From Deltaproteobacteria bacterium (GTDB taxonomy: Bacteria > Desulfobacterota > Desulfarculia > Adiutricales > JAFDHD01): a stretch of DNA of 32,278 bases. Positions within the stretch are counted from its first letter, which is position 1, and each line of letters starts with the position of its first letter. This document shows, piece after piece, positions 28,586-30,683 of the stretch. The stretch covers positions 1 to 32,278 of the forward strand of contig JAFDHD010000028.1 in the NCBI GenBank assembly GCA_019308995.1, given 5' to 3'. The translations under genes and the position numbers were made by a program. The notes under the pieces are model-generated. The model was not told the origin of the DNA, ran no database searches, and saw nothing but the letters and a program-made list of their open reading frames with translations.

Positions 28586-30073
28586 TTATTTTTTTCGTCC
28601 ACGCCTCAAGGCGGTCAATATCGCCTCGGCCTTGTGAAGGCTCTCCTGATATTCAGTCGCAGGGTCAGAATCAGCCACGATCCCGCCTCCGGCCTGAATC
28701 CAGGCCTGGTCGCCTTCCACGACCAGGGTGCGGATGGTAATGCAAAAATCTATATCTCCGGAAAAACTTAAGTACCCCACCGCTCCCCCATAGGGTCCAC
28801 GGCGAATCGTTTCTAATTCTTCAATGATTTCCATGGCCCGGATTTTGGGCGCGCCGCTTAAGGTCCCGGCCGGGAAGGCGACCTTGAGGACATCGAGCGG
28901 TTTGCGGTTCTGGTCCAGGATTCCTTCGACATGAGTGACGATATGCATGACGTGGGAGTAAAATTCGACCGTCATCAGGTGCGGCACCGTGACTGAGCCC
29001 AGGCGCGCCACCCTGCCGACGTCGTTACGCCCCAGGTCCACCAGCATGATATGCTCGGCCGTCTCCTTGGGATCGCTCAAAAGGTCCTTGACCAATACCT
29101 CGTCAGCGTCGGGACTGCTTCCCCGGGGGCGAGTACCGGCGATAGGCCGGAGCTGAATACGATTGCCTGTCAGACGGACAAGCATTTCGGGAGAAGCCCC
29201 GACCAGGCAGAGGTCATCGAAGTCGAGAAAGAAGCAGTATGGAGAAGGGTTGATTTCCTTCAAGGCCCGGTACAGGCTTAACGGGTCTCCTTCAAAATCC
29301 ACACTGAGTCGCTGAGACAAAACCACCTGGATGATATCTCCGTTTCGGATGTACTCCTTGGCCTGGTGAATCCGGTGCTCATATTCCGACTGGGAGACAT
29401 TGCTTCGGACTTCAGTCCCGCATTTAAAATTATCGAGAAATCCTTGATCCTCTGTTGAATCTGCCTGTAGAAGTTTCTGCCTCATCTCCTTTACACGGGA
29501 GGCAGCTGCCTGGTAAGCGGCCTCTAGGTCTTTGCCTTCCTGAAGAAGGGCTAAAGAGATTAGAAGCACTTCGCTGGTGCGCCGGTCAAAACGAAGCAGA
29601 TCCCTGCAGACGACGAAGTGCATCTCGCATTGTTCAGGCTCCACAAGGCAGAGACTGGGGAGCCGTTCCAGGCTCCGTACCGCGTCATAGCCCATAAAAC
29701 CCACGGCCCCTCCCCAGAAATTACCCAGGTCCGCGGGAACCGCGGGACGAAACCGGCTCATTAGAAGTTTCAGGCCCTGCCACGGGTCAGCGTCATATTT
29801 TTCGTTCCTGCCGCTTACGAAATCCTGAAGCTCGACCCGGCCCGGCCAGGCCTTTGCGGCTGCCAGCGGATTGATCCCCAAAAAACTGGCGCGGCTGAAT
29901 TCGCCGTATGGGCCAAGGCTTTCGAGCAGAAATACAGGCCTGACCGGCGCTAAGGCAGAAATAGCCTGATTCGGAGAAATGGCGACGTCAGTAAACCTGG
30001 TATAAACGGGAACCACATTTCTCCCCTCTGCTTGATGACAAAATGTCTTAAAATCGGGCTTGATAAGCTCCAT
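28586..30073 (-). CDS. trpE: anthranilate synthase component I
   Basis: A 495-residue enzyme converting chorismate plus ammonia to anthranilate. The N-terminal feedback site carries FLLES (the Trp-binding LLES element). Catalytic parts include DIIQVVLSQR, PSPYCFFLDF, the pyruvate-side GTRPRGSSPDADE, DLGRNDVGRVA and TLSGAPKIRAMEIIEELE. The start is ATG 30073 behind GCGGAG; the open frame continues upstream only because it crosses the attenuator. It is first gene of the operon, under the attenuator and trpL. Confidence 0.95.
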   Translation of the reverse strand: MELIKPDFKTFCHQAEGRNVVPVYTRFTDVAISPNQAISALAPVRPVFLLESLGPYGEFSRASFLGINPLAAAKAWPGRVELQDFVSGRNEKYDADPWQGLKLLMSRFRPAVPADLGNFWGGAVGFMGYDAVRSLERLPSLCLVEPEQCEMHFVVCRDLLRFDRRTSEVLLISLALLQEGKDLEAAYQAAASRVKEMRQKLLQADSTEDQGFLDNFKCGTEVRSNVSQSEYEHRIHQAKEYIRNGDIIQVVLSQRLSVDFEGDPLSLYRALKEINPSPYCFFLDFDDLCLVGASPEMLVRLTGNRIQLRPIAGTRPRGSSPDADEVLVKDLLSDPKETAEHIMLVDLGRNDVGRVARLGSVTVPHLMTVEFYSHVMHIVTHVEGILDQNRKPLDVLKVAFPAGTLSGAPKIRAMEIIEELETIRRGPYGGAVGYLSFSGDIDFCITIRTLVVEGDQAWIQAGGGIVADSDPATEYQESLHKAEAILTALRRGRKK

Positions 30074-30087
30074 TTTTTTCTCCGCAT

Positions 30088-30171
30088 AAAAAAACCGTGG
30101 TCCGATTGACGGTTCCACGGCTATTTGAGATGAAAATGAAAAGCCGTGGACAGGAAGCCTGCCCACGGCTT
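30088..30171 (-). terminator. trp operon attenuator
   Basis: In transcript order: hairpin C:D (30158-30171 with 30141-30154, 9 bp plus an inner CAGG/CCUG), then E:F (30115-30120 with 30095-30100, CCGUGG/CCACGG plus an inner CCG/CGG) followed by U7 (30088-30094), the terminator. D can instead pair with E over 8 bp (CCACGGCU/AGCCGUGG), giving an antiterminator. The ORF of trpE continues only past this point. Confidence 0.85.
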
Positions 30172-30194
30172 GTTTTTTTATTATTTAGCGTTAA

Positions 30195-30293
30195 CTAATG
30201 CAAATCAAATGGCGAGCAGACCTCCTTTATGTGAATCTGCCACCACCACCAGTTTAACCCGTTAACCAGATTTTGACCTTGCCTGATGGTCAT
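30195..30293 (-). CDS. trpL: trp leader peptide with four consecutive Trp codons
   Basis: ATG 30293, preceded at 8 nt by AAAGGG, opens a 32-residue frame: MTIRQGQNLVNGLN, then Trp-Trp-Trp-Trp (30240-30251), then QIHIKEVCSPFDLH and TAG. This is a classical attenuation peptide. Unlike the E. coli leader, the Trp codons are about 70 nt before the pause hairpin. The gap holds an extra pairing segment (30211-30222) that can bind either the Trp-codon region or the pause hairpin. Confidence 0.88.
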   Translation of the reverse strand: MTIRQGQNLVNGLNWWWWQIHIKEVCSPFDLH

Positions 30294-30324
30294 GAAACGG
30301 CCCTTTCCAAATAATTTCTGAGCT

Positions 30325-30353
30325 ACCATATCACGCACCTGCAATCTTGTCAA
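30325..30353 (-). promoter_or_regulatory. promoter of the trp operon
   Basis: Consensus TTGACA (30348-30353), 17-bp spacer, TATGGT (30325-30330). Its -35 is only 16 bp from the end of an IS-derived element. No TrpR-type operator was recognised, which fits control by attenuation. Confidence 0.75.
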
Positions 30354-30369
30354 TAGCTGGAGAGAGGAA

Positions 30370-30683
30370 TGTCAGTAGCACATGATATGTCCGCTTTTCA
30401 TAGCACTTAATTTGTCCGGTTTGACGGATTTTGGATACTGGTACCTAAGGAGGTACCATGAAACGACATCCAGGATCTGCGGATATTGAGAGTTACAGCC
30501 CGGACGATGAGGCAGAAGCAAACCGCTCCCGCCTCTTCCCCGGTCGCACCACGGGCGCTCGGGTCGCTCCCCAGCGTGGCCCTATCCTCACATGGTGCAA
30601 TTGAATGATAAACAGAAACTAAAAAAAAGCAACCGGACATTTAATGTGCTATGAACACCGGACATTTTAATGTGCTATTGACA
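30370..30683. mobile_element. 314-bp IS-derived mini-element, IS21-like ends
   Basis: Both ends start TGTCA-TAGCACAT inward and carry two copies each of a TAGCACA-TGTCCGG-type repeat: 30376-30393 and 30401-30419 on the left, 30633-30651 and 30658-30677 inverted on the right. TGT/CA tips and several internal end-repeats are typical of the IS21 family. No istA/istB reading frame fits in 314 bp, so it is an internally deleted, non-autonomous copy. I see no obvious target duplication. Confidence 0.6.
30458..30604 (+). other. 48-codon ORF inside the mini-element, SD in a hairpin
   Basis: ATG 30458 opens a 48-residue frame (MKRHPGSADIESYSPDDE... ending ILTWCN). GGTACC at 30440-30445 and 30452-30457 flank TAAGGA, so the SD lies in a 6-bp-stem hairpin touching the ATG. 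It is probably a fusion of transposase-gene edges left by internal deletion; no function is claimed. Confidence 0.3.

Follow-up and report, generated by a model that had tools for sequence, protein, structure and literature searches.

The leader upstream of trpE in the 32,278-nt stretch of DNA analysed here (called the window) is very likely a ribosome-mediated trp attenuator in which two serial terminators are worked by one ribosome position. Segments A to D are an ordinary four-segment attenuator of the E. coli type with C:D as its terminator (T1), and E:F is an added second terminator (T2), linked to the first by the helix D:E. Direct support comes from the parts themselves, their pairing potential, the covariation of B:C and of D:E, the tandem arrangement of the terminators and the absence of TrpR.

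The trp operon and its leader ORF

A complete trp operon, trpEGDCFBA, occupies the minus strand from 30073 down to 23566, and all leader features given below lie on the same strand. According to the Pfam assignments (PF00425/PF04715, PF00117, PF00591, PF00218, PF00697, PF00291 and PF00290) the gene order 3' of the leader is trpE (28586..30073), trpG, trpD, trpC, trpF, trpB and trpA. Directly upstream of this operon is a translatable leader ORF, trpL (MTIRQGQNLVNGLNWWWWQIHIKEVCSPFDLH; 30195..30293), of 32 codons from the ATG at 30293 to the TAG at 30197-30195. It contains four UGG (Trp) codons in succession (TGG x4, 30240..30251; WWWW in the peptide) and is preceded by the SD-like sequence GGAAAGGG (30308-30301). 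The predicted trp promoter (30325..30353) consists of TTGACA (30353-30348), a 17-nt spacer and TATGGT (30330-30325).

The homology to a congener, G001, starts at the TTGACA of this promoter. Further upstream, a multicopy sequence (30367-30483) stops about 13 bp before the trp -35 box; two other contigs of the same genome carry copies at their ends that are 99-100% identical, and G001 has no homology to it upstream of its TTGACA. Judging by its sequence, it resembles one end of an insertion sequence of the IS21 type. It was also observed that TrpE of the genus reaches about 470 bits and 50% identity with TrpE of other classes in the phylum, versus at most 298 bits and 44% with its own order. 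The trp operon may have a history different from that of its order.

Alternative pairings of six segments

Segment A, the classical segment 1 (GGUGGCAGA, 30236..30244), pairs with positions 30220-30211 in a helix of 9 bp with one bulge, and 6 of 2000 shuffles were equally good. Segment B, the classical segment 2 (30211..30226, with UCUGCUCGCC at 30220-30211), can alternatively pair with segment C, the classical segment 3 (30152..30170, with GGGCAGGCU at 30164-30156), which comprises the 5' arm and loop of T1. The initial annotation of this DNA had seen the B:C pairing as 9 bp long; the pairing is real, but it extends over 15 unbroken bp, between AGGAGGUCUGCUCGC (30226-30212) and GUGGGCAGGCUUCCU (30166-30152). 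When the B region was dinucleotide-shuffled 2000 times, no shuffle gave a helix of at least 13 bp (mean longest 6.4), and a single one matched the duplex energy of -28.3.

Segment D, the classical segment 4 (30133..30154), is the 3' arm of T1 and precedes UUUUCAUUUU. Its hairpin with C has -25.9 kcal/mol and ends in an interrupted U-tract, CUUUUCAUUUU. Segment E (30114..30122) is the 5' arm of T2, of which AGCCGUGGA forms 9 bp with UCCACGGCU of D (30150-30142), a pairing equalled by 1 of 2000 shuffles. Segment F (30088..30100) is the 3' arm of T2 (CCACGG) with UUUUUUU behind it, and the E:F hairpin has -16.1 kcal/mol. The mutually exclusive helices 1:2, 2:3 and 3:4 of a classical attenuator are thus A:B, B:C and C:D, the last of them resembling a terminator with its U-tract. 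Apart from the length of B:C, the initial annotation had described these parts correctly: the four Trp codons and all six segments lie where it had placed them, A:B is the bulged 9-bp helix that it had given, and D pairs with C or E, and F with E.

Leaders of related bacteria

A search of 60 relatives with the leader DNA found G001 as the sole match, and the relatives were therefore gathered via TrpE. From TrpE searches in the class and the phylum the upstream regions were taken, which gave a panel of 53 distinct leaders whose ORF is of the WWW type. When more leaders that could be aligned were sought in the order of genome G109, the four TrpE loci that came up all belonged to genomes already sampled, and one wider contig scan with TrpE gave matches in distant phyla that were of little use. 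T2 is present in 36 of the 53 leaders and absent from 17. It usually follows T1 at a distance of 3-22 nt, with E:F energies from -12.5 to -25.5 kcal/mol.

G001 has the same leader layout (ORF VDYKGHKNLLNSLNWWWWQIHIREVCSPSDMN, then stop), and its C:D hairpin ends in UUUUUU. After the Trp run 7 of 8 codons (CAG ATT CAC ATA. GAG GTC TGC; QIHI-EVC) are identical between G001 and the window; at conserved residues of trpE this holds for 50.5% of the codons, and the start and end of the trpL ORF vary freely. One could ascribe the conservation behind the Trp codons to a functional leader peptide (WWWWQIHIKEVC) instead of RNA structure, as this peptide is nearly identical in G001 and as the trp leader peptide of Sinorhizobium works in trans according to PMC7298713. 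Yet the synonymous positions are conserved too, and across the phylum the residues after WWW vary freely while B stays complementary to the non-coding segment C, which makes such an explanation extremely improbable.

In another family of the class, genome G041 (ORF MMTNMLHNLNNWWWPCYIGGVCR, then stop) has the same architecture built from unrelated stem sequences: GGAGGGG:CCCCUCC for B:C, GGGCGGUCCCC:GGGGCCGCCC for C:D and GCCGCCC:GGGUGGC for D:E. The one-terminator form of the leader is found in a family of the same order (f2). Leaders with a single terminator include L118, L119, L133, L134, L142, L143, L145, L151, L162, L202 and L215; they are natural counterparts for gauging the effect of the second terminator.

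In 32 of the 36 leaders with two terminators the C:D hairpin is followed by at least 4 U, and by six or more in many of them, G001 included; the remaining four have fewer than 4 U. This bears on the possibility that termination takes place at E:F only, with C:D as an intermediate hairpin that does not terminate, like that of hisL. Such a leader would have the same topology as the his leader (PMC1183508), and the broken U-tract of the window (CUUUUCAUUUU) as well as the four leaders with fewer than 4 U would suit it. We regard it as unlikely, given the U-tracts of the 32 others and the fact that C:D is the sole terminator of 17 leaders. The initial annotation had taken C:D for a pause hairpin and had remarked on a gap of about 70 nt between it and the Trp codons. 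From the last Trp codon to C:D there are 67 nt in the window and 45-78 nt in leaders of the panel, and E. coli trpL has 53 nt to its terminator, so this spacing is ordinary. On the grounds of U-tracts and spacing the pause-hairpin assignment was rejected; the place of the 1:2 pause hairpin is held by A:B. The U-tracts, the leaders in which C:D is the only terminator and the E. coli-like spacing together identify A to D as the classical segments 1 to 4 and C:D as T1.

Covariation of B:C and D:E

In a MAFFT alignment of 22 leaders, which could be read, the B:C registers differ from clade to clade. Therefore, duplex tests of own versus swapped partners and duplex-based counts of pair types were used. 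B:C surpassed 95% of its shuffles in 47 of 53 leaders, A:B in just 30. For 44 nonredundant leaders the mean B:C energy was -22.5 kcal/mol with the own partner versus -16.1 kcal/mol with swapped ones (z = -12.6, 20,000 permutations), a test which keeps composition and not phylogeny, so that the number of independent events is overstated among these related leaders. Most B:C positions outside the GUGG of C show between three and six types of pair, including changes on both sides; these counts lean towards structure, as the partners are set by duplex energy, a bias of which the swap test is free. The covariation check that had been proposed together with the initial annotation thus found B:C pairing kept with differing sequences across the phylum.

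D:E behaved in the same way. In 32 nonredundant leaders own partners were favoured with z = -5.3, and with z = -4.3 after removal of the clade with a WCWW motif; in either case 0 of 20,000 permutations were equally good, subject to the same overstatement of independent events. This supports the pairing of D with E that the initial annotation had described. Inside the WCWW clade own D:E pairs were no better than swapped ones. Furthermore, D, E and F have changed jointly in several lineages (G041, L205 and L206).

These data have to be weighed against a plain four-segment attenuator, in which regulation would lie entirely with A to D. E:F would then be a copy of T1, weak or vestigial, with no coupling through D:E. 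A to D by themselves do fit the E. coli arrangement, the 17 of 53 leaders that have no T2 presumably work, and the WCWW clade gives no D:E signal. Duplication of a hairpin would by itself yield complementarity between D and E, and judged from the sequences the D:E complementarity could partly be a by-product of the duplication of a single hairpin, with C resembling E. Still, E:F is a good predicted terminator just before trpE that would block expression unless it is countered, own D:E pairs beat swapped ones both overall and without the WCWW clade, and the joint changes of D, E and F were seen in G041, L205 and L206. A plain four-segment attenuator is therefore quite unlikely, and we prefer two terminators coupled by D:E.

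The WCWW clade consists of L113, L115, L129, L130, L131, L140, L147 and L154. In its leaders the UGA stop codon is inside B (e.g. CCCGUGAGG), paired to segment C (CCUCACGGG), and B is thereby masked directly once a ribosome stands at the stop. In several leaders of the panel, for instance L205, L160, L164 and L190, D:E reaches into the U-tract of T1, which pairs with an A-run before E; with this extension the D:E antiterminator is roughly 13 to 16 bp long.

Folding with a ribosome on the leader

For each of the four Trp codons of the window, folding the RNA that a ribosome at that codon leaves free, up to E, gave B:C together with D:E as the minimum. A ribosome covering B led to C:D, and when the ribosome stood at the stop codon and folding was confined to the RNA 3' of it, C:D and then E:F formed. 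The window leader without a ribosome folded into A:B, C:D and E:F. Among the 36 leaders with two terminators the stalled state gave B:C and D:E in 32, versus 22% with a dinucleotide-shuffled B; C:D formed in 29 with the ribosome at the stop codon and in 26 without a ribosome. These folds and the covariation across the phylum support the relay as the initial annotation had proposed it, in which stalling hides A, B:C and then D:E form, and F is left free.

Some states are finely balanced. In the window 15 nt separate the end of B from that of the ORF; a ribosome halted at the stop codon thus covers just 3-4 nt of B, and in this state A:B with C:D is close in energy to B:C with D:E. The off state should therefore lean on timing or on the re-forming of A:B. 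While the ribosome is stalled, C:D has a slight energetic advantage before E is made, hence D:E may in addition help to stabilise B:C. For G001 the equilibrium fold contains C:D in all states, even with A masked, and the switch there would have to be kinetic.

A model of the switch

Since T2 sits between T1 and trpE, some way to disable it is needed, and D:E is the evident one. We infer in which order the RNA folds during transcription, that T1 and T2 do terminate it, that the leader responds to tryptophan and that its purpose is to keep basal expression low where a repressor is missing. In the model A:B would act as the 1:2 hairpin, B:C as the antiterminator, C:D as T1 and E:F as T2 before trpE. 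If tryptophan is short, the ribosome would stall on the UGG codons and cover A; B could then capture C and free D, which in turn would capture E and leave F single-stranded, so that RNA polymerase would pass both T1 and T2. If tryptophan is plentiful, the ribosome would be passing over B during the synthesis of C and D, with A:B able to re-form behind it. With B unavailable, C:D would form and transcription would terminate at T1, and polymerases leaking past T1 would meet T2, as D is then occupied and E free for F.

TrpR (PF01371) was absent from the genome of the window, which is 96.5% complete, in a search that detected the E. coli control; with no TrpR gene in the genome, a TrpR-controlled operon was ruled out. 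None of 63 genomes of the class contains TrpR, and the 15 of 390 genomes of the phylum with a match above the cut-off do not include the source of any panel leader. For the enteric his leader, Elf and Ehrenberg (PMC1183508) described an extra hairpin between the pause hairpin and the terminator and argued that it cuts basal readthrough, as the his operon is not repressor-controlled. The absence of TrpR fits this argument, by which an extra hairpin lowers basal readthrough where the repressor is missing. We consider it rather probable that this type of attenuator is widespread in the phylum, with one ribosome decision acting on two serial intrinsic terminators via D:E and the multiplied repression replacing the missing TrpR.

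Comparison with known systems

The Rfam scan of the window gave no match at gathering level. The Trp_leader model (RF00513) scored 15 bits (E = 2.1) on the leader, below its gathering cut-off of 41 bits, and the trpB motif with 28.8 bits was also below cut-off. A T-box or other known riboswitch was rejected, as an Rfam match above cut-off was absent. The arrangement of the segments can serve as a structural signature by which trp leaders missed by the current Rfam Trp_leader model may be annotated.

With E. coli trpL the leader shares an ORF with tandem Trp codons, the 1:2, 2:3 and 3:4 pairings and the spacing given above. Unlike E. coli trpL it has T2 and the coupling helix D:E, and its genome lacks TrpR. 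Tandem terminators are also known from the rimP leader (PMC2965389), which has two, one of them with a possible antiterminator; this leader lies upstream of rimP in some Gammaproteobacteria and is not a Trp leader of the present kind. Two attenuation decisions in one leader are likewise made in Salmonella mgtCBR, where, according to PMC3641672 on its tandem attenuators, two ORFs are involved, whereas the trp leader here has one ORF and a single decision relayed by D:E.

A search of the open-access literature, a scope that leaves subscription comparative attenuator surveys outside, found no description of a trp leader with two terminators. Related leaders with one or two terminators around the same Trp sensor amount to a natural experiment across the phylum, and with them one can test the proposal of PMC1183508 that a leader's additional hairpins reduce basal expression in the absence of a repressor.

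Among the closest known systems is hisL of E. coli and Salmonella, with a six-segment relay, an extra C:D hairpin, the alternative helices B:C and D:E and no control by a repressor. The codons differ, being Trp here and His there, and in the trp leaders the middle hairpin C:D mostly is itself a terminator with a U-tract, whereas in the hisL sequence it has none. The initial annotation had presented the six segments as going beyond known attenuation models. As hisL of enteric bacteria already has six (PMC1183508), this claim shrinks to that of a new trp form of the known his-like principle. The relay is thus familiar from the his leader, while its trp version, with two terminators and in genomes without TrpR, seems to be new.
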